Positions 7,864 through 35,655 of a stretch of 64,000 bases of DNA are shown one piece after another. The stretch lies in contig JAHBWW010000002.1 in assembly GCA_019636795.1 (NCBI GenBank), positions 186,001 to 250,000 of the forward strand. Direction: 5' to 3'. The position numbers and the translations under genes were made by a program. The notes beneath the pieces were generated by a model that worked only from the letters and a program-made list of their open reading frames with translations, did no database searches and was not told the DNA's origin. Source of the DNA: Phycisphaeraceae bacterium. Its GTDB lineage: Bacteria > Planctomycetota > Phycisphaerae > Phycisphaerales > UBA1924. Positions within the stretch are counted from its first letter, which is position 1; each line of letters begins with the position of its first letter.

Positions 7864-9006
7864 ATGCACACCGCACTCGTCATGGCGGGCATTCCCGCGA
7901 CCAACCTGAGCCTGTTCCACGCCGTGCGCTTCAATGTCGGCGACCCGACGGCCTTTGTGCGCTTCGCCGACGGCACGAGCCTGTTCCTCTGCCGCGACAT
8001 CGAGCTCCACCGGGCCGCCCGCGAGGCCCGCGCCACGCGCGTCGCGGCCCCGGCCGAGTTTGCACCGGTCGGCGGGCTCAGCCCCGAGCGCGAAACGGCC
8101 ACGGCCCAGGCGCTGGCCGAAGCGCTCGCGGGCGCAGGCATCACGCGCGCGGTGGCCGACCGCTCCCTGCCGCTGATCTACGCCGAGTTCATCCGCCGCC
8201 GCGGCATCGAGGTCGCGCTGGACACCGATCTGGGCGTCCTCGAGCGCCGGCGCAAGGACGAAGCCGAGATCGCGGCCCTCGCCGAGGCCCAGGCCGCGAC
8301 CGAAGAGGCCATGCTCATGGCCTGCACCACCATCGCGCGCGCCCGCGCCGGCGCGGACGGCGTGCTGATGCACGACGGCGCGCCCCTCACCGCCGAGCGC
8401 GTGAACACCATGATCGACGTGTTCTTTCTTGAGCGCGGCTACACGACGCCGGGCAGCATCGTCGCCTGCGGCCAGGCCGGAAGCGACTGCCACAATCGCG
8501 GTTCGGGGCCGCTGCGCACCGGCGAGCCGATCATCGTCGATATCTTCCCGACCAACCGGCGCACGCGCTACAGCGGCGACTGCACGCGCACGGTCGTGCA
8601 CGGCACAATCCCGCCGACCATCGCCCGCATGCACGCGGCCGTCAAGGCCGCCAAGGCCGCGGGCATCGCGGCCGCGCGCGCGGGCGTGACGGCAGACAGC
8701 GTGTATCAGGCCGCGATCGACGTGATCCGCGCCGCGGGCTTCGACCGCGCCCTCTTGCCCGAACATCCGCCCGCCGACTTCTGCTCGATGCAGCATGGCC
8801 TGGGCCACGGCATCGGGCTCGAGGTTCACGAGCCGCCGCTGGTCGATGCGGGCGGGCCCGAGCTCATCGCGGGCGATGCCTTCACCGTCGAGCCGGGGCT
8901 GTATCACGCAACGCTCGGCGGCATCCGCATCGAGGACATCGTCGTGGTGACGGAAACCGGCTGCCGCAACCTCAATCGTCTGCACGAAGAACTCGACTGG
9001 ACCTGA
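7864..9006 (+). CDS. M24-family metallopeptidase (Xaa-Pro aminopeptidase-like)
   Basis: 380 residues. The N-terminal 150 residues form the creatinase-like non-catalytic domain; the C-terminal pita-bread fold has the dinuclear metal ligands D226 (IVDIFP), D239 (SGDCTRT), the His of QHGLGHGIGLEVHE, the Glu of TVEPGLY and the Glu of GIRIEDIV. Such enzymes remove N-terminal residues before proline or split Xaa-Pro dipeptides in the cytoplasm. The two Asp ligands are 13 residues apart rather than the usual 11, so a two-residue insertion lies in that loop. The gene belongs to a run of peptide-related genes and ends 15 bases before the next one. Confidence 0.88.
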   Translation: MHTALVMAGIPATNLSLFHAVRFNVGDPTAFVRFADGTSLFLCRDIELHRAAREARATRVAAPAEFAPVGGLSPERETATAQALAEALAGAGITRAVADRSLPLIYAEFIRRRGIEVALDTDLGVLERRRKDEAEIAALAEAQAATEEAMLMACTTIARARAGADGVLMHDGAPLTAERVNTMIDVFFLERGYTTPGSIVACGQAGSDCHNRGSGPLRTGEPIIVDIFPTNRRTRYSGDCTRTVVHGTIPPTIARMHAAVKAAKAAGIAAARAGVTADSVYQAAIDVIRAAGFDRALLPEHPPADFCSMQHGLGHGIGLEVHEPPLVDAGGPELIAGDAFTVEPGLYHATLGGIRIEDIVVVTETGCRNLNRLHEELDWT

Positions 9007-9021
9007 ACCAAGGAGCGCGCG

Positions 9022-10794
9022 ATGCACGCTGCAAGACATGCAGGAACAATGATGACAGCGGTCCGGACCGCGCTCGCCGCGGCGGTGTGGATGCTGGCGA
9101 TACTGAGCAGCAGCGCGCCGGCCCAGCCGATGACGCCCGACAGCGTGCTCGCGCCCGCGATCCGCGCGCTCGACGCCGACGAACGCACCATCGCCCGCTT
9201 TCACGATGATCGCTGGTCGCGGGAGTCGATCGAGGCGCGCACGGCCCTGGCGCAGCGCGCGCTGGCCGCGTGGCCGCCGATGCCGTTTGATGATCTCGAC
9301 GTGACGGCCCGGGCCGACGCGCTGATGCTGCGGGCCCACCTGGTCGGGACGCTGGCCGATCTCGAACTGGCCGCGGCGCGCCGGGCCGAGATGCTGCCGC
9401 TGCTGCCGCATCGCGATCTGATCGAAGACCTCGAAGCGCTGCGGACGCAGATGGCCGAGCTCGACTTGCCCAGCCTCGCGCGCGAACTGGCGGCGCTGCC
9501 GCAGATGCTGCGGCTGGTGCGCGAGCGCATCACCAGCGCCGCCGAGACCGAAAACCCCGATGCGATCTCCGTCACGCCGAGCCTGGCGCTGCGGGCCGCG
9601 GGCGCCAGCGCCGCTTCGAGGCGCACGCTCGAACGTTTCCGCGACCATTACGCCGCCTTCGTGCCCGCGTTCGGCTGGCACATGGACGCGCCGATCCGCG
9701 AGGCGCTCGCAGCCATCGGCGAGCATGAAAAGTTCCTGCGCGAATCGATCGCGGGCCAGGGCGGGGGCGATGCGGATGCGCTCGTGGGCGACCCGATCGG
9801 GTCCGAGGCGCTGCTGGCCCACCTCGAGCGCGAGATGATCGCGCTGTCGCCCGAAGAACTCATCGCCGTAGCCGAAACCGAACTCGCCTGGTGCCGCGCG
9901 CGCCTCGCCGAAGCCGCCGGGGAACTGGGGTACGGGGGCGATATCGCCGCCGCGATCGACCATGTCAAGAGCCTGCATGTCGCGCCGGGCGAGCAGCCTG
10001 CGCTGGTCACGCGCCTGGCCCGCGAAGCGATCGACTTCGTGCGCGAGCGCAATCTCGTGACGGTGCCCGAGCTGTGCGCCGACCTGTGGCGCACGCAGAT
10101 GATCAGCGCCCGCGACCAGCGCACCTGGCCGTTCGCCGCCTACAACAACAATCATGTCATGGTCGCCTACGCCTCGAGCGAGCAGGACTTCGAGGCGCGT
10201 CAGATGGCGATGCGCGGCAACAACGAGCACTTCACGCGCCTCGTCGTCCAGCACGAACTCATCCCCGGCCACCACCTGCAGGGCTTCATGGCCGCGCGGC
10301 ACCGCGCGTACCGCAGCCTGTTCGCGACGCCTTTCTTCGTCGAGGGCTGGGCGCTGTACTGGGAGATGCTGCTGTGGGACGTGGGCTTCGCCCGCGGGCC
10401 CGAAGACCGCATCGGCATGCTGTTCTGGCGCAGCCACCGCGCGGCGCGCATCATCGTGAGCCTGAAGTTTCACCTCGGGCAGATGACGCCGGCCGAGATG
10501 ACGGCCTTTCTGGTCGACCAGATCCACCACGAGCGCGACAACGCGGCCAGCGAGGTGCGGCGCTACGTCGGCGAGCAGTACAGCCCGCTCTACCAGGTCG
10601 CGTACATGATCGGCGGGCTGCAACTGCGGGCCCTGGCGCGCGAGGTCGAAGCCGCGGGCACGATGAGCCAGCTCGAGTTTCACGACGAGCTGCTGCGGCA
10701 CGGCTCGATCCCCGTCGCGATGATCCGCGCCCAGATCCTGGGCCACGACCTTTCGCCCGCGTTCACACCCGACTGGCGCTTTGATCGCGACTGA
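9022..10794 (+). CDS. Secreted DUF885-family putative zinc peptidase
   Basis: 590 residues with a signal peptide (hydrophobic about 17-33, ending SSAPAQ). The DUF885 core has HELIPGHH at residues 411-418 and the downstream FFVEGWALYWE with E441, the expected zinc ligands of this gluzincin-like family. The length is typical. Members are thought to be carboxypeptidase-like enzymes but few have been tested. The start has a weak AAGGAG at 9008-9013, about 8 bases before the ATG. It follows the M24 peptidase by 15 bases and is probably co-transcribed with it. Confidence 0.82.
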   Translation: MHAARHAGTMMTAVRTALAAAVWMLAILSSSAPAQPMTPDSVLAPAIRALDADERTIARFHDDRWSRESIEARTALAQRALAAWPPMPFDDLDVTARADALMLRAHLVGTLADLELAAARRAEMLPLLPHRDLIEDLEALRTQMAELDLPSLARELAALPQMLRLVRERITSAAETENPDAISVTPSLALRAAGASAASRRTLERFRDHYAAFVPAFGWHMDAPIREALAAIGEHEKFLRESIAGQGGGDADALVGDPIGSEALLAHLEREMIALSPEELIAVAETELAWCRARLAEAAGELGYGGDIAAAIDHVKSLHVAPGEQPALVTRLAREAIDFVRERNLVTVPELCADLWRTQMISARDQRTWPFAAYNNNHVMVAYASSEQDFEARQMAMRGNNEHFTRLVVQHELIPGHHLQGFMAARHRAYRSLFATPFFVEGWALYWEMLLWDVGFARGPEDRIGMLFWRSHRAARIIVSLKFHLGQMTPAEMTAFLVDQIHHERDNAASEVRRYVGEQYSPLYQVAYMIGGLQLRALAREVEAAGTMSQLEFHDELLRHGSIPVAMIRAQILGHDLSPAFTPDWRFDRD

Positions 10795-18307: not shown

Positions 18308-21166
18308 TCAGTTGCCACGCAGCGCCGCCTGCGCCGCCGCAAGACGTGCGATCGGCACACGGAATGGCGAGCAACTCACATAGTCAAGCCCGATGCGATG
18401 ACAGAACTCGACCGACGCCGGGTCGCCGCCGTGTTCGCCGCAGATGCCAACCTTCAACTTGTCGTTCCCCGCGCGTCCGCGCACGAGGCCCATCTCAACC
18501 AGCTGCCCAACGCCAGACTGATCGAGCGTGCCAAACGGATCGGCTGGCAAAATCTCCTGGCGAATGTAATCAGGCAGGAACGTGTTCACATCGTCTCGCG
18601 AATATCCGAATGTCAACTGCGTCAAGTCATTGGTCCCGAAACTGAAAAAATCGGCAATCTCAGCGATTTCCTTCGCAGCCAGCGCAGCACGCGGAACCTC
18701 GATCATCGTTCCGATCTTGATATCGAGACGCGGCGTGTAGTCTTCCTCAGCCTTGACCTCGCGAATGACAGCCTCGGTCTCGCGACGCAGCAACTCGAAC
18801 TCGGCGCGTGTGCCGACAAGCGGAATCATGATCTCGGGCATGGCCTTGATCTTGCGACGCACACATTCGATCGTCGCCTCCACAATCGCCCTCACCTGCA
18901 TGCGCAGAATCTCGGGGTACGTGATCGACAGGCGACACCCGCGATGCCCCAGCATCGGGTTCGATTCCTGCAACATCATCACGCGAGAATGGATCTTCTC
19001 GAACGGCACACCCAGACGCGCCGCCATCTCGCGTTGCATTTCCTCTTCATGCGGCACAAACTCATGCAATGGTGGATCCAGCAGGCGAATCGTCACCGGC
19101 AAACCCTTCATCGCTTCGAAGATGCCGATGAAGTCGTCACGCTGATACGGCAGCAACTTGGCCAGCGCGGCCTCGCGTTCCTCCTTCGACTCGGCCAGAA
19201 TCATCTCTCGCATCGAACGGATGCGGTCACCCTCGAAGAACATGTGCTCCGTGCGGCACAGACCAATGCCCTCAGCCCCAAAATCACGCGCCCGGGCCGC
19301 GTCCTTGGGTGCATCCGCATTCGTCCGCACACCAAGCGTGCGATACTTATCCGCCCAACGCATGACCTTGGCAAAATCGCCCGACATTTTCGGCTCGATC
19401 CGCGGCAGGTTGCCATGAATCACCTCGCCCGTCGAACCATCGAGCGAGATCAGATCCTGCCGCCCGAATGTACGCCCCCCCACCGAGAACGTCCCGGCTG
19501 CCACATTGATGTCGATCGCGCTCGCGCCCGCAACACAGCACTTGCCCCAGCCGCGTGCAACAACCGCCGCATGGCTCGTCATACCGCCCGTGCTCGTCAG
19601 AATTCCCACAGCCGAGTGCATGCCGTCAACGTCCTCAGGACTGGTCTCGCGCCGAACCAGAATCACCTGCTCGCCCTGAAGCGCCCGCTCGACGGCTTCC
19701 TCAGCTGTGAACGCCGGACGCCCCACCGCCGCACCGGGCGAAGCCGGCAGACCACGAGCCAGAATGTCGGCTGATGCCTTCTTCGATGGGTCAAAACTCG
19801 GCAGCAGAAGCTGCGTCAGATCGTTGGCAGGAATGCGCAGCACCGCCTGCTTCTCAGTAATCAGTTTTTCCTTGACCATGTCGCAGGCAATACGGACCGA
19901 AGCGCCGCCCGTCCGCTTTCCCGTGCGAGTCTGGAGCATGTACAACTTGCCACGCTCGATCGTGAACTCGATGTCCTGCATTTCGCGGTAGTGCTTCTCG
20001 AGCTTCTTCTTGATGTCGATCAGCTGCTTGTACACCCGCGCGTTCCAGTTCTTCATCTCGTCGACCGGCCTGGGCGTGCGAATCCCCGCAACCACGTCCT
20101 CGCCCTGCGCGTTGACCAGGAACTCGCCGTAAAACTCGTTCTCGCCCGTCGAAGGATTGCGGGTGAACGCAACGCCCGTGCCCGAGTCATCGCCCATGTT
20201 CCCGTACGCCATCGTCTGCACGTTCACCGCAGTGCCCTTGAGACCCACGATCCCGCTCAGGCGGCGATAGCTCACCGCGCGGTCCGCGTGCCAGCTCTTG
20301 AACACCGCCTCGATCGCCAGTTCAAGCTGCTTGAAGGGATTCTGCGGGAACTCATCACCAACATGAGCGCGGTAAACCTCTTTGTACGCATCGCACAACT
20401 CGCGCAGGCCATCCGACGGCACTTCCGTATCCAGCGTGACTCCGTACCGCAGCTTCACTGCGTCAAATGCCGCCTCGAACTTGTCGTGATGTACGCCCAT
20501 CACCACATCGCCGAACATGTTGATCAGTCGGCGATACGCGTCGTACGCAAACCGGCTGTTCCCCGTTGCCTTGACCAGGCCCTCGACCGACGTGTCGTTG
20601 AGCCCGAGGTTCAGAATCGTGTCCATCATCCCCGGCATCGACACCGCCGCACCCGACCGAACCGAAACCAGCAGCGGGTTCTCGTCGCTCCCGAACTGCT
20701 TGCCCGTTTCCTTCTCCAGCGTCGCCATGTGCTGATGCACTTCGTTCATCAAACCGTGAGGCAGACGCTTGCCGCCCTCGTAATAACGAGCGCACGTGTC
20801 CGTCGTGATCGTGAACCCCGGAGGCACCGGCAAGCCGATCGAAGTCATGTCGGCCAGGTTCGCGCCCTTACCCCCGAGCAACTGCTTCATCGACGTGTCG
20901 CCCTCGGTGCCAAGCATGCCGAAGTAGAACACCATTTTGTCCTTGCGAGGACGACGATCGGCAGCTGGCGCGCTCCGCCCGCCGCTTCGTGCCGATTTGC
21001 GCGCAACCTTCTTGGTCGTGTGACGAGCGCTCGCGCCCCCGGCATGAACTTTCGCCGCCCCTTTCTTTTTCACACTCGACGACGAGCCCCCGGGCTTTGT
21101 CGTTGACTTCTTCGGGGCAACCTTTTTGCTCGTCTTCTTCGTCTTCTTCGCCATAGCGTTGCTCAT
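18308..21166 (-). CDS. ppdK: Pyruvate, phosphate dikinase with Lys-rich N-terminal extension
   Basis: 952 residues; interconverts pyruvate, ATP and phosphate with PEP, AMP and PPi. The N-terminal ATP-grasp part has GGKGANLADM and RNPSTGENEFYGEFL; the swivelling domain has the phospho-His in GGMTSHAAVVARGWG; the C-terminal barrel ends CGEHGGDPASVEFCHRIGLDYVSCSPFR with the catalytic Cys region. The family is usually near 875-900 residues. The surplus is the first 75 residues, rich in Lys, Ser, Thr and Ala (KKTKKTSKKVAPKKSTTKPG), resembling histone-H1-like tails; catalytic homology starts at MVFYFG (about 78). An internal start at that Met is the alternative. Its 5' end is divergent from pabB. 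Confidence 0.93.
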   Translation of the reverse strand: MSNAMAKKTKKTSKKVAPKKSTTKPGGSSSSVKKKGAAKVHAGGASARHTTKKVARKSARSGGRSAPAADRRPRKDKMVFYFGMLGTEGDTSMKQLLGGKGANLADMTSIGLPVPPGFTITTDTCARYYEGGKRLPHGLMNEVHQHMATLEKETGKQFGSDENPLLVSVRSGAAVSMPGMMDTILNLGLNDTSVEGLVKATGNSRFAYDAYRRLINMFGDVVMGVHHDKFEAAFDAVKLRYGVTLDTEVPSDGLRELCDAYKEVYRAHVGDEFPQNPFKQLELAIEAVFKSWHADRAVSYRRLSGIVGLKGTAVNVQTMAYGNMGDDSGTGVAFTRNPSTGENEFYGEFLVNAQGEDVVAGIRTPRPVDEMKNWNARVYKQLIDIKKKLEKHYREMQDIEFTIERGKLYMLQTRTGKRTGGASVRIACDMVKEKLITEKQAVLRIPANDLTQLLLPSFDPSKKASADILARGLPASPGAAVGRPAFTAEEAVERALQGEQVILVRRETSPEDVDGMHSAVGILTSTGGMTSHAAVVARGWGKCCVAGASAIDINVAAGTFSVGGRTFGRQDLISLDGSTGEVIHGNLPRIEPKMSGDFAKVMRWADKYRTLGVRTNADAPKDAARARDFGAEGIGLCRTEHMFFEGDRIRSMREMILAESKEEREAALAKLLPYQRDDFIGIFEAMKGLPVTIRLLDPPLHEFVPHEEEMQREMAARLGVPFEKIHSRVMMLQESNPMLGHRGCRLSITYPEILRMQVRAIVEATIECVRRKIKAMPEIMIPLVGTRAEFELLRRETEAVIREVKAEEDYTPRLDIKIGTMIEVPRAALAAKEIAEIADFFSFGTNDLTQLTFGYSRDDVNTFLPDYIRQEILPADPFGTLDQSGVGQLVEMGLVRGRAGNDKLKVGICGEHGGDPASVEFCHRIGLDYVSCSPFRVPIARLAAAQAALRGN

Positions 21167-25584: not shown

Positions 25585-27225
25585 ATGCCCAGCCCAGCAC
25601 GCGCCAAGATTCTCTCCATCAACGATCTTCAGCAACTCCGCGCACAAGCCCGCACCGCAGGCCAGACTGTCGTCCAGTGTCATGGCTGCTTTGACATCGT
25701 TCATCCCGGGCACATCCGCCACCTCCGATTCGCAAAATCCCAAGGCGATCTCCTTCTCGTCACCATCACCGGCGATTCCGAAATCACCAAAGGCGACGGC
25801 CGACCACTCATCCCCCAGGAACTCCGCGCCGAAAACCTCGCCGAGCTCGACTGCGTCGATTGGGTCTGCATCGACCCTCACCCCACCGCCGCCGATCTCC
25901 TCACCCACATTCAGCCCGACGTCTTCATCAAGGGCCGTGAGTACGAGTTCAACCGCGATCCGCGTTTCGCCGCCGAACGCGCCGCCGTCGAGAATGCCGG
26001 AGGCCGCGTCGTCTTCAGTTCCGGCGACGTCATCTTCAGTTCAACCGCACTCATCAACGCAATGGAAGCCCAGACCGAACCATTCCAGCGTCGCCTCGCG
26101 CACCTCGCCCAGCAGCCCGAACTCGCGCAAGGCGCACTCGAACTGCTCTACTCCGCTTTCCGAGGCCGCCGAATACTTATCCTCGGCGAAATCGTGCAGG
26201 AAACATACGTCTTCTGCGATCAACCCGAAGTCGCCGACGAAGCCCCAATCATGTCGCTCCGCCCCGTTCGGCACCAATACTTCGATGGCGGAGCAGCCAT
26301 CATCGCACGGCATCTCGCAGCACTCGGCGCAAAACCCACCCTCGCCACCGCTCTCCCCGACTCCGATCTGGCTCGCGCCGTGCAGCGTCGACTCAACGCT
26401 GCAGGTGTCGATGTCAATCCCGTCACAATCGACTCACCAATTCCCGAGCGCCAGCGCTTCTTCGTCAACTCCACAAAGATGATGAAACTCGATCTGGCCG
26501 ATCACCTCGTTCTCGACGCACGTCAGCGCGAGCAACTCATCGCGGGCACCATCTCCATTGTCAACGATGCCCAAGGCTTCGACGCCGCGATCATCGCCGA
26601 CGCTGGCATCGGTCTCTTCTCGCCCGCAATCCTTCAGCGCCTCAGCCGAGATCTCCGCCCACACATCGGCGTCCTCGCTGCCGGCAGCAGCTCGCGCCGC
26701 GCCGACCTCCGCTCCCTTCATCACCTCGATCTCCTCTGCACCTCCGAATCGCAACTCCGCGACGCATACCGCAACTTCGGCGACGGCCTCCCCGCCGTCA
26801 CATGGGAACTCTTCCACGAGACCAACTCACACGCCGCCATCGTATCGCTCGCCGACGAAGGTCTCATCGCCTTCAACCGTCTCCCACAAGCCACCGACTC
26901 CGCATGGCAGTCTCGACTCAAAGGCGAACATGTCCCCTCACTGGCCGCCAATCCCGTCGATACGCTCGGCTGTCACGAAGCCATGCTCGCCACCGCCACC
27001 CTCGCCCTGGCCAGTGGCGCATCGCTCCTCGCCGCTGGCTTCCTCGCATCCGTCGCTGCCGGCCTGCACGCACGCCGCATCGGCAACCCACCCGTCGAAA
27101 TCTCTGAACTCCGACGCGACTGTTCCCGCGTGCTCTCATCGCGCATCGCGTTCACTCAGACCGAACTCCCCATCGTCGCTCGCATCACCAGGCCAGATCC
27201 CGCTGCACACCGCACCGCCTCATGA
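25585..27225 (+). CDS. HldE-like fusion in reversed order: nucleotidyltransferase plus degenerate PfkB domain
   Basis: 546 residues. Residues 30-165 form a cytidylyltransferase-type domain with GCFDIVHPGH (34-43), KGDGRPLIPQELRAENL and DVFIKGREYE, as in the adenylyltransferase half of HldE (ADP-heptose synthesis). Residues about 185-500 resemble a PfkB sugar kinase (FDGGAAIIARHLAALGAK, DLADHL, TWELFHETN). In E. coli HldE the kinase comes first; here the order is reversed. The PfkB active-site signature, normally DTxGAGD, reads DTLGCHE (459-465), so the catalytic Asp and anion-hole residues are missing and kinase activity is doubtful. The next gene overlaps by 4 bases. Likely role: activation of a sugar for surface glycans. 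Confidence 0.8.
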   Translation: MPSPARAKILSINDLQQLRAQARTAGQTVVQCHGCFDIVHPGHIRHLRFAKSQGDLLLVTITGDSEITKGDGRPLIPQELRAENLAELDCVDWVCIDPHPTAADLLTHIQPDVFIKGREYEFNRDPRFAAERAAVENAGGRVVFSSGDVIFSSTALINAMEAQTEPFQRRLAHLAQQPELAQGALELLYSAFRGRRILILGEIVQETYVFCDQPEVADEAPIMSLRPVRHQYFDGGAAIIARHLAALGAKPTLATALPDSDLARAVQRRLNAAGVDVNPVTIDSPIPERQRFFVNSTKMMKLDLADHLVLDARQREQLIAGTISIVNDAQGFDAAIIADAGIGLFSPAILQRLSRDLRPHIGVLAAGSSSRRADLRSLHHLDLLCTSESQLRDAYRNFGDGLPAVTWELFHETNSHAAIVSLADEGLIAFNRLPQATDSAWQSRLKGEHVPSLAANPVDTLGCHEAMLATATLALASGASLLAAGFLASVAAGLHARRIGNPPVEISELRRDCSRVLSSRIAFTQTELPIVARITRPDPAAHRTAS

Positions 27226-28319
27226 TCTCCTACGTCATCCCAACCCGAGACCGCCCCGACGACCTCGCACGCACCCTGCGAGGCATCGGCTCATTACTCG
27301 AACACGATCCCGCGCATCCCGCGCACGAACCTGCCGAAGTCATCGTCATCGACAACGCCTCTCGCTTCGTCCCCATCGTGCCCGCATGGCTCGACAACAG
27401 AGTCCCCGTACGCCTCGTCCTGCTCAACGAAAATCTCGGAGCCGCCTCACGCAACATCGGCGCAAAACGCACCAGCCCCGACAGCCAATGGATCATCATG
27501 CTCGATGACGACTCCATGCCCGTCGATGGTCGCTTCATCCACCGCCTGCGCACACAACCCGCCGACGTGGCCGCCGTCATGGCCGACATCTTCCTCCCAA
27601 ACCAGGATCGACGCGAAGATGGCGGACTCCCAGAGGTCTTCGTAGGGTGCGGCGTTGCCATCCGACGCGAAATCTTCACATCCCTCGGCGGATACGACCA
27701 CACCTTCGAGTACTACGCCGAGGAATACGACCTCTCCGCACGCATCCTCCACTCCGGATCACGCATCGTCTTCGAGCCCGACTTCCGCATCCATCACTTT
27801 AAATCCGCCGGCGGACGCGACATGAACCGCATCGTCGCACGGCTTGTCCGCAACGGCTGCTGGGTCATGCAGCGCTACGCCCCGCAATCCGACCGCCGAA
27901 CACAACTTCGCGAGGTCCGCAACCGCGCACGCCTCATCGCCATGCTCGAAAACGCAACCGAAGGCTACAAACAAGGCCTCGCCGAACTCCGCGAATCACT
28001 CTCTCGCCAGGCACGCTCCCCGCTCGATCGCACCACCTTCGACCGCTTCACCGGTCTATGGCACGCGCGACAAGCCCTCCAGCGTGCGCACGCGGACCGA
28101 CCATTCTCGTCCGCCAGAGTCGTTGGGCAAGGCAAGAACGCCTGGGTCGTCCAGCGGGCTCTGGCCGAACTGGGCGTCAGCATCAATGACAAAAGCGACG
28201 TCCTCGTCGTCGGAACCATGAGCCCCGGGCCCATGCTGGACACACGCGACCGCTTTGCCGACCTCGGCCGAGTCATCACTCCATGGTCGCGCACCGCCCG
28301 CGTCGCTCGGCGGACCTGA
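27222..28319 (+). CDS. Family 2 glycosyltransferase
   Basis: 365 residues. A GT-A fold with VIPTRDRPDDLARTL at the start, IIMLDDDSMP as the metal-binding DxD region, and EEYDLSARILHSG as the catalytic ED region; the resemblance is to rhamnosyl- or similar transferases. The last 90 residues have a separate small pattern (VVGQGKNAWVVQRALAEL ... VLVVGTMSPGPMLD) resembling a nucleotide-binding fold fragment. ATGA overlap with the preceding HldE-like gene indicates one operon for glycan synthesis. Confidence 0.85.
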   Translation: MISYVIPTRDRPDDLARTLRGIGSLLEHDPAHPAHEPAEVIVIDNASRFVPIVPAWLDNRVPVRLVLLNENLGAASRNIGAKRTSPDSQWIIMLDDDSMPVDGRFIHRLRTQPADVAAVMADIFLPNQDRREDGGLPEVFVGCGVAIRREIFTSLGGYDHTFEYYAEEYDLSARILHSGSRIVFEPDFRIHHFKSAGGRDMNRIVARLVRNGCWVMQRYAPQSDRRTQLREVRNRARLIAMLENATEGYKQGLAELRESLSRQARSPLDRTTFDRFTGLWHARQALQRAHADRPFSSARVVGQGKNAWVVQRALAELGVSINDKSDVLVVGTMSPGPMLDTRDRFADLGRVITPWSRTARVARRT

Positions 28320-34395: not shown

Positions 34396-35655
34396 TCATT
34401 CCTCGCCAAAGTCGAACGCCATGCGATAGCCGGTACGCCACACAGGGTACTCGAGATCGAGTCGATAGCCGACATACTCGCGTGGGTCGAGGTTTTCAGC
34501 CGCAAAGAGTGTGTGCAGCAATTCCTGATGTCTGTGATACTGTTCCGATCGCGCGCCTTCAATGCCTGTCGGGAGCAGTTCGAGCCTCGGCCCGTCCGCG
34601 AATCGAGTCTGCCAACGCTCGCCGATCTGTGTTGAAAAGTCCGGCCTCCAGAGGTGGTGATCGAGCGACGGAATACACCGCCGTGCCAAGTCTCGATGCA
34701 GAAAGCAATCGAAGAGCATCCGTCGCACCGGAAAGTTGACCAGCGCCCACACTTCTTCGAGTTTGTGTTCGCGTTGCGCCGGGTGGCTCATCAGGCCGGT
34801 CATGCCGAAGACCAGGTCGATCGTGCCCGAGCCCGGCGCATCGGGGTTTTCCTCGATCGTCTGCACGACATGCTCGCCCGGGTGACGTGACCGCACAATC
34901 GGCAGAGGCGAGGTCGAAAACTCCCGCAAAATCGCATCGGGCTTGCGCAGCGCGCGAAATCGACCGACCTCTTCGGGCGCAGCCGGGTCATCACCAAAAA
35001 CGTGAAACGTCAGGGGCACCGCGTCGGCCCGGGCGCGATGCCCGATCAATCCATGGACGCGCGACTGGGCCACGCGCGTCGGGTCGGCCGTGGGCGTATA
35101 GACATGCGCCGCAAGCCACAGGTTTGACGATCGACCAGTGACCTCGCTGGCAGCATCAAACAACCGCTCGCGAGCAGTAGTGTCGTGAACATTGCGGGCT
35201 GAAGACGGCTCGGCAGGCGAGACACGCCTCAGCAATTTGCTCCGACTCCCCGCCAGTTCGCGGATGGTTCGATCGAGGTTCTCCACAGCCTGATGGGCCT
35301 CGCCGAGCGATGCCGTGCGAAACCCGTCGCGCTGCTCGGCAGCCTTGAGCATGATCTGCATCCCGCGCACGCCCGGAAGTTGCCCAACGAGCGAAAGCCC
35401 GGGATACGGACCCGTGACAGCACTGACGAGCCTCTGACACGTCGTCCGCTCGACGCCAAGACACCGCGCAAGCCCGCTCGCCGACTGCGCCTCAACGGGA
35501 AACTCCGAAAGAAGCGAGCGAAACTGTTCACGAAAACGCCGCAAATCGCGGTCGAGATGTGCAGCCTCATCGGGCGACAGCGGAGAGGTGTCGCCCTTGA
35601 GGAATACTCCCGAACTCAAGCGATTTACAGATTCTGACGACTTTGTGCTTGACAT
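34396..35655 (-). CDS. Helix-turn-helix protein of unknown function, possible regulator
   Basis: 419 residues. Residues about 55-80 (SASGLARCLGVERTTCQRLVSAV) look like a helix-turn-helix. The following 330 residues have no recognised fold but show regular alpha/beta patterning (SNLWLAAHVYTPTADPTRVAQSRVHGLIG, TIDLVFGMTGLMSHPAQREH). I know no named family. An inverted repeat immediately beside its start codon and its divergent orientation to the PEP-CTERM-like gene suggest a locus-specific regulator, which is inference. Ends 49 bases from the convergent zinc-ribbon gene. Confidence 0.65.
   Translation of the reverse strand: MSSTKSSESVNRLSSGVFLKGDTSPLSPDEAAHLDRDLRRFREQFRSLLSEFPVEAQSASGLARCLGVERTTCQRLVSAVTGPYPGLSLVGQLPGVRGMQIMLKAAEQRDGFRTASLGEAHQAVENLDRTIRELAGSRSKLLRRVSPAEPSSARNVHDTTARERLFDAASEVTGRSSNLWLAAHVYTPTADPTRVAQSRVHGLIGHRARADAVPLTFHVFGDDPAAPEEVGRFRALRKPDAILREFSTSPLPIVRSRHPGEHVVQTIEENPDAPGSGTIDLVFGMTGLMSHPAQREHKLEEVWALVNFPVRRMLFDCFLHRDLARRCIPSLDHHLWRPDFSTQIGERWQTRFADGPRLELLPTGIEGARSEQYHRHQELLHTLFAAENLDPREYVGYRLDLEYPVWRTGYRMAFDFGEE

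Follow-up and report, generated by a model that had tools for sequence, protein, structure and literature searches.

Among the closest described counterparts of the gene analyzed here is HldE (RfaE), a bifunctional heptose-7-phosphate kinase and heptose-1-phosphate adenylyltransferase, in whose pathway GmhA, the HldE kinase, the GmhB phosphatase and the HldE nucleotidyltransferase (NT) act in that order (PMC10948575). The HldE NT domains of E. coli and Vibrio also take beta-D-mannose 1-phosphate (PMC10948575). Outside bacteria, carbohydrate-kinase-like proteins with actual or proposed non-catalytic roles include plant FRUCTOKINASE-LIKE FLN1 and FLN2 and yeast Gal3p (PMC3409070). A stretch of 64,000 nucleotides from a Phycisphaeraceae bacterium (GCA_019636795.1, contig JAHBWW010000002.1, positions 186,001 to 250,000), hereafter the window, carries a gene for an HldE-like fusion in which the NT domain comes first and the PfkB-type kinase domain second.

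HldE domain models score best for both halves of this protein, which differs from HldE in its reversed order, its degenerate kinase site and the presence of a separate canonical HldE in the same genome. The NT half, predicted to hold the sole remaining activity, resembles the stand-alone adenylyltransferase HldC (RfaE2, e.g. 5x9q), to which the window protein adds a C-terminal PfkB domain of ~320 residues. The second domain is closest in fold to HldA of B. cenocepacia (4e84) but is altered at the catalytic Asp, the NXXE Glu, the anion-hole Gly and other positions. FLN1, FLN2 and Gal3p share its carbohydrate-kinase-like character but are eukaryotic, lack an NT fusion and belong to unrelated pathways, Gal3p being a member of another sugar-kinase family. 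Searches of the available literature library found no paper on HldE in Planctomycetes, nothing relevant on bacterial PfkB pseudokinases and no published description of a kinase-dead reversed fusion of the window type. The window protein is a domain-swapped HldE-like form with the kinase decayed in one lineage, and it has independent parallels.

Results

The kinase site of the PfkB half is degenerate

The best model for the PfkB half was TIGR02198 (HldE domain I), at 81.6 bits against a cut-off of 345; the intact NXXE and GAGD motifs of that model are replaced by SESQ and GCHE. In a phmmer search against the PDB, the match to HldA of B. cenocepacia had its catalytic Asp at the position of E465 and the Glu of its NRAE (NXXE) motif at that of Q390. 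The positions altered in the window protein comprise Lys289, Phe340, Asp367, NXXE Glu390, anion-hole Gly464 and catalytic Asp465, while Asp339 and the GG motif are retained. The preliminary description had read the DTxGAGD signature as DTLGCHE (residues 459-465), with the catalytic Asp and the anion hole gone. Both statements were confirmed, and the present analysis added the losses at Lys289, Phe340, Asp367 and the NXXE Glu.

Two alternative explanations were rejected. A displaced GAGD loop is absent: no second GAGD-like loop was found anywhere in the fusion protein when both the sequence and the AlphaFold model were inspected, and residues 463-476 form a confidently predicted helix. A sequencing or assembly error would need three substitutions, as CAC GAA differs from the GGC GAY pair by three base changes, plus changes at other catalytic sites, all within an open frame. 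The GCHE reading is therefore not a chance artifact.

The fold itself is predicted to be kept. The AlphaFold models of the window protein and of its relative L006 (mean pLDDT, the predicted local distance difference test score, 87.9 and 88.3, respectively) have almost identical secondary structure, and pLDDT exceeds 90 across most of the window PfkB domain. HldA was the best match to this domain (model residues 176-511; Foldseek E 6e-24), with 310/313 residues aligned to 4e84 at Z 37.1 and a root-mean-square deviation of 2.7 (VIA-align); other PfkB kinases scored lower, at about Z 32. The model thus shows a complete PfkB/ribokinase fold, lid included, from which the site residues have been lost, and the window protein has the combination expected of a pseudokinase, a predicted kinase fold without catalytic residues. 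With a predicted template modelling score of ~0.7, the relative placement of the NT and PfkB domains is not fixed by the model.

The NT half is conserved

Pfam placed CTP_transf_like at residues 33-121 (5e-14) and PfkB at 224-499 (2.9e-10), and NCBIfam and Pfam together put the PfkB domain at about residues 190-513, after the NT domain, in agreement with the earlier reading that the order is the reverse of that in E. coli HldE. The full-length HldE equivalog (NF008454/PRK11316), whose cut-off is 521 bits, scored only 151.8, and the match was broken into separate stretches. The best specific model for the NT half was TIGR02199, with 109.3 bits, compared with 24.7 bits for TIGR01518 and ~25 for the next specific models. 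As this score is below the equivalog cut-off of 181.5 bits, the NT half was filed as HldC-like, not as HldC. HldC-type 5x9q was the closest solved structure by sequence (phmmer against the PDB, E 4.6e-20). The HxGH signature of TIGR02199 members is present, and the surrounding GCFDIVHPGH is unvarying in 62/62 rows of the family alignment. Only 2 of the 65 family-invariant NT columns deviate in the window protein, 63 being kept.

Kinase-site loss is specific to the clade of the window protein, with independent repeats

The kinase site was compared over 97 distinct Phycisphaerae-type sequences. Asp465 is kept in 95/97 and Gly464 in 94/97, and the usual loop reads DxLGCGD; L009, for example, has every motif of the family. 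Among the other members, 57 kinase columns are invariant to at least 93%, and 13 of these differ in the window protein (median over all sequences, 1); this count is the joint highest, reached otherwise only by L064, which sits on a very long branch. The window protein is nested in the tree within a supported clade of five (window, L004, L005, L006 and L086; SH-aLRT 99). Gln replaces the NXXE Glu in all five members. Asp367 of DVSG is lost in the window protein, L005, L086 and L004 and kept in L006, and the last loop reads GCHE in the window protein, GCDD in L005 and L086, and GCGD in L004 and L006. Kinase-site loss is thus specific to this clade and not a trait of the family. The preliminary description had implied that the reversed fusion as such is a degenerate kinase; its reading of the site stood, but this wider scope did not, since ~98% of the Phycisphaerae-type relatives keep the Asp and the colinear proteins of Azospirillum and Solidesulfovibrio have a full GAGD.

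Segments of the kinase domain were compared between this clade and 1,239 control pairs with comparable identity in the kinase. Conservation dropped at the DVSG loop (z -2.3) and the GCGD helix (z -1.6); the lid, GG helix and DFG segments showed no drop, and most other kinase segments were conserved like the controls or better. Overall kinase divergence was unusable as proof of relaxed selection, because pairwise kinase identity in the clade lies within ~1 standard deviation of expectation. The kinase-to-NT ratio of nonsynonymous divergence (dN) was 1.50-1.89, level with or slightly beyond the upper end of the control range (1.02-1.71), and only the site-specific tests discriminate. A pair within the clade, L004 and L086, is under purifying selection (kinase-domain dN 0.056, synonymous divergence (dS) 0.55).

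A remote member of another family-rank group (L138, G211:C32:11488-13050; 35% identity) has lost nearly the same set of residues independently: it carries Lys289Arg, Phe340Ser, Asp367Ser, Glu390Asp and GALE in place of GAGD, with an intact NT half. Its CTP_transf_like match passes, and its PfkB match falls just under the Pfam cut-off. In L080, the loop reads GSGA. The mirror image of the window protein is L179 (G510:C1 about 810042-811571; 8973-10472 (-)), a dead NT joined to an intact kinase: its HxGH motif is destroyed, with QLKVADI where relatives read xxHxGHI, and it has no CTP_transf_like match but keeps GAGD. Each half of the reversed fusions can be lost separately.

The reversed architecture is recurrent

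A genome scan found 80 loci with full- or near-full-length colinear relatives at 40-64% identity, nearly all in Phycisphaerae metagenome-assembled genomes. The window protein is colinear with 61 relatives at 39-64% identity and shares their family-invariant residues. At the family rank of the window, 148/150 genomes and 107/107 of good quality had a match, mostly to the full fusion, and the full fusion is scattered across the phylum. Outside the phylum, plasmid and phage collections were sampled. Colinear NT-PfkB proteins with GAGD intact were found there on plasmids of Azospirillum oryzae (WP_149200362.1) and Solidesulfovibrio carbinolicus (WP_129356083.1), both annotated 'PfkB family carbohydrate kinase'. 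Given these colinear relatives in the family, at scattered points of the phylum and in both Azospirillum and Solidesulfovibrio, the reversed order is a recurrent architecture and not a peculiarity of the window gene.

In A. oryzae, the fusion has a GmhA-like SIS isomerase gene as its immediate neighbor, in S. carbinolicus such a gene lies one gene away, and several planctomycete members akin to these two also adjoin such a gene. This association points to heptose-type sugar activation. A third type of reversed fusion (L144, L145 and L146) has the NT signature (S/T)G(Q/K)FNV(V/I)HPGH, in which the Asp of FD is Asn, and an intact GAGD; an SIS isomerase gene lies just upstream in L144.

ADP-heptose genes are present elsewhere in the genomes

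ADP-heptose genes form a separate set in the window genome. A canonical HldE lies at C5:132 kb, directly downstream of an open reading frame judged LpxK-like by sequence inspection, and a GmhA homologue at C5:144 kb (205.1 bits, cut-off 209.45). HldD, above its cut-off, is at C1:745 kb, and at C1:28-30 kb a glycosyltransferase family 9 (GT9) gene adjoins the gene of a histidinol-phosphatase-type HAD protein (GmhB type). Nearly all of the 30 family genomes checked, including 5/5 of the window's clade, have a separate canonical HldE kinase (~270-305 bits), as do G211 and the genome of L080. In G510, the genome with the dead NT, a separately encoded NT of HldE type scores above the family cut-off.

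Discussion

We consider it probable that the protein acts as a nucleotidyltransferase on a sugar 1-phosphate, and most likely as an HldC/HldE domain II-type adenylyltransferase, with a lineage-specific C-terminal pseudokinase derived from HldA. This reading is based on the near-intact NT half and the decayed kinase half, the retained fold, the repeat of the same loss in G211 and the separate ADP-heptose genes. The canonical HldE and GmhB would supply a sugar 1-phosphate, from which the NT half would still make a nucleotide sugar. The coupled family 2 glycosyltransferase (GT2) and the glycosyltransferase encoded divergently would use this product for a surface glycan, and the dead PfkB domain would be retained as a dimerization or folding scaffold. 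Because the GmhB step lies between the kinase and NT steps, the intermediate is released in any case, so that a fusion with a dead kinase could receive it in trans. The kinase half has possibly lost its catalytic residues because the cell has another enzyme able to do the phosphorylation.

Several points weigh against this reading. The canonical HldE is also present in nearly every relative whose fusion kinase is intact, so redundancy alone does not explain a loss restricted to the window's clade; a clade-specific change in the substrate source or the glycan is possible. The case for heptose as the substrate is indirect, and no SIS isomerase gene was found near fusions of the window's own type. 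The scaffold role is suggested by conservation and predicted fold only. D465E is a conservative change, which makes residual kinase activity possible, and dS beyond the closest pair is near saturation.

A tentative alternative, which we regard as possible but less probable, differs from the favored reading in the substrate only and overlaps with it: the nucleotide sugar made by the fusion would not be ADP-heptose and would go into a planctomycete-specific glycan, the kinase loss reflecting a changed source of sugar 1-phosphate. Scores far under the HldE equivalog cut-offs, the canonical HldE already in the genome, the acceptance of beta-D-mannose 1-phosphate by the HldE NT domains of E. coli and Vibrio (PMC10948575) and the partners in the window's clade, GT2 and CgeB-like glycosyltransferases and not heptosyltransferases, are consistent with it, but the HldE halves remain the best-scoring models for both domains, and deeper members adjoin GT9 heptosyltransferase and LptF/LptG genes.

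The second domain was earlier suggested to bind but not phosphorylate sugar-like ligands, which is possible. A role as a sensor, binding a sugar phosphate or a nucleotide to regulate the NT half, nevertheless seems unlikely. The fold and the GG-helix region are kept, but among the lost residues are the NXXE Glu, which coordinates Mg, and the anion-hole Gly. In the PfkB family, both contribute to nucleotide handling. Several of the lost positions lie in the active-site cleft, which makes a scaffold no less likely than a ligand sensor. A precedent for a sensor is Gal3p, a non-catalytic carbohydrate-kinase-like regulator that binds ATP and galactose (PMC3409070).

Continued kinase activity from a non-standard site, in which Glu465 would serve as the base, is quite improbable: a carboxylate is kept in D465E and Asp339 and the GG motif are retained, but at least six site positions, each conserved in most relatives, are altered together, and the same pattern of decay recurs in the remote G211 fusion. 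Decay of the whole gene without current function, to which the longer-than-median end branch (0.57 vs 0.29) might point, was rejected in view of the conserved NT invariant positions and the confidently predicted kinase fold, along with the open 546-aa frame, the translational coupling to GT2 and the purifying selection in L004/L086.

More broadly, reversed HldE-like fusions might form a parallel second sugar-activation system in which either half is repeatedly silenced yet persists as a partner with a structural or regulatory role. The window protein would then be one of several independently evolved pseudokinase-adenylyltransferases, whose dead HldA-type domain controls or organizes the adenylyltransferase and routes intermediates of the canonical HldE into a dedicated surface glycan; we hold this wider proposal to be doubtful. 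Intact, partly lost and fully lost kinases and one mirror NT loss form a natural series within one bifunctional family, so that the reason for keeping a dead enzyme domain can be tested directly among close relatives. The family also points to a second nucleotide-sugar route beside the standard heptose pathway in nearly all sampled members of a Phycisphaerae family, for which no published description was found, and it cautions against annotating these genes as kinases.

Locus organization

Table 1. Coordinates of the fusion gene, its sequence features and the adjacent glycosyltransferase genes in the window.
Feature	Coordinates	Strand	Evidence
Reversed NT-PfkB (HldE-like) fusion gene	25585..27225	+	546 aa; ATG 25585, stop 27223-27225
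NT domain, HldC/HldE domain II type, residues about 30-163	25672..26073	+	TIGR02199 109 bits; 5x9q E 4.6e-20
Intact NT signature GCFDIVHPGH (HxGH motif), residues 34-43	25684..25713	+	Invariant in alignment
HldA-like PfkB domain, predicted pseudokinase, residues about 190-511	26152..27117	+	TIGR02198 81.6 bits; HldA 4e84 Z 37.1
Degenerate DVSG loop, GSSS (family DVSG), residues 367-370	26683..26694	+	Family alignment
Degenerate NXXE equivalent, SESQ, residues 387-390; Mg-binding Glu to Gln	26743..26754	+	Aligned with HldA NRAE
Degenerate GAGD loop, DTLGCHE (family DxLGCGD), residues 459-465	26959..26979	+	Family alignment
Coupled GT2 glycosyltransferase	27222..28319	+	PF00535 3.6e-11
Divergent CgeB-like glycosyltransferase, 814 aa	23066..25510	-	PF13524 (Glyco_trans_1_2)

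The fusion stop and the GT2 start at 27222 overlap as ATGA, so the two genes are coupled, as had been proposed; the large divergent glycosyltransferase mentioned with them was identified as the CgeB-like gene. A GT2 orthologue follows the fusion in 54/77 loci, and a CgeB-like glycosyltransferase lies upstream, mostly divergent, in 22/77. In deeper members, the fusion adjoins LptF/LptG and GT9 heptosyltransferase genes. At ~15/77 loci, the divergent neighbor is a GT4-type glycosyltransferase fused to a C-terminal KdsC-like HAD phosphatase (e.g. L027 4100-5887 (-)).

Elsewhere in the window, a pyruvate phosphate dikinase (18308-21166 (-)) has a Lys/Ser/Ala-rich, histone-like N-terminal extension of ~75 residues, and its relative in L027 has a basic N-terminal extension too. 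A 419-aa open frame without a Pfam match (34396-35655 (-)) lies directly downstream of a PrkA gene.
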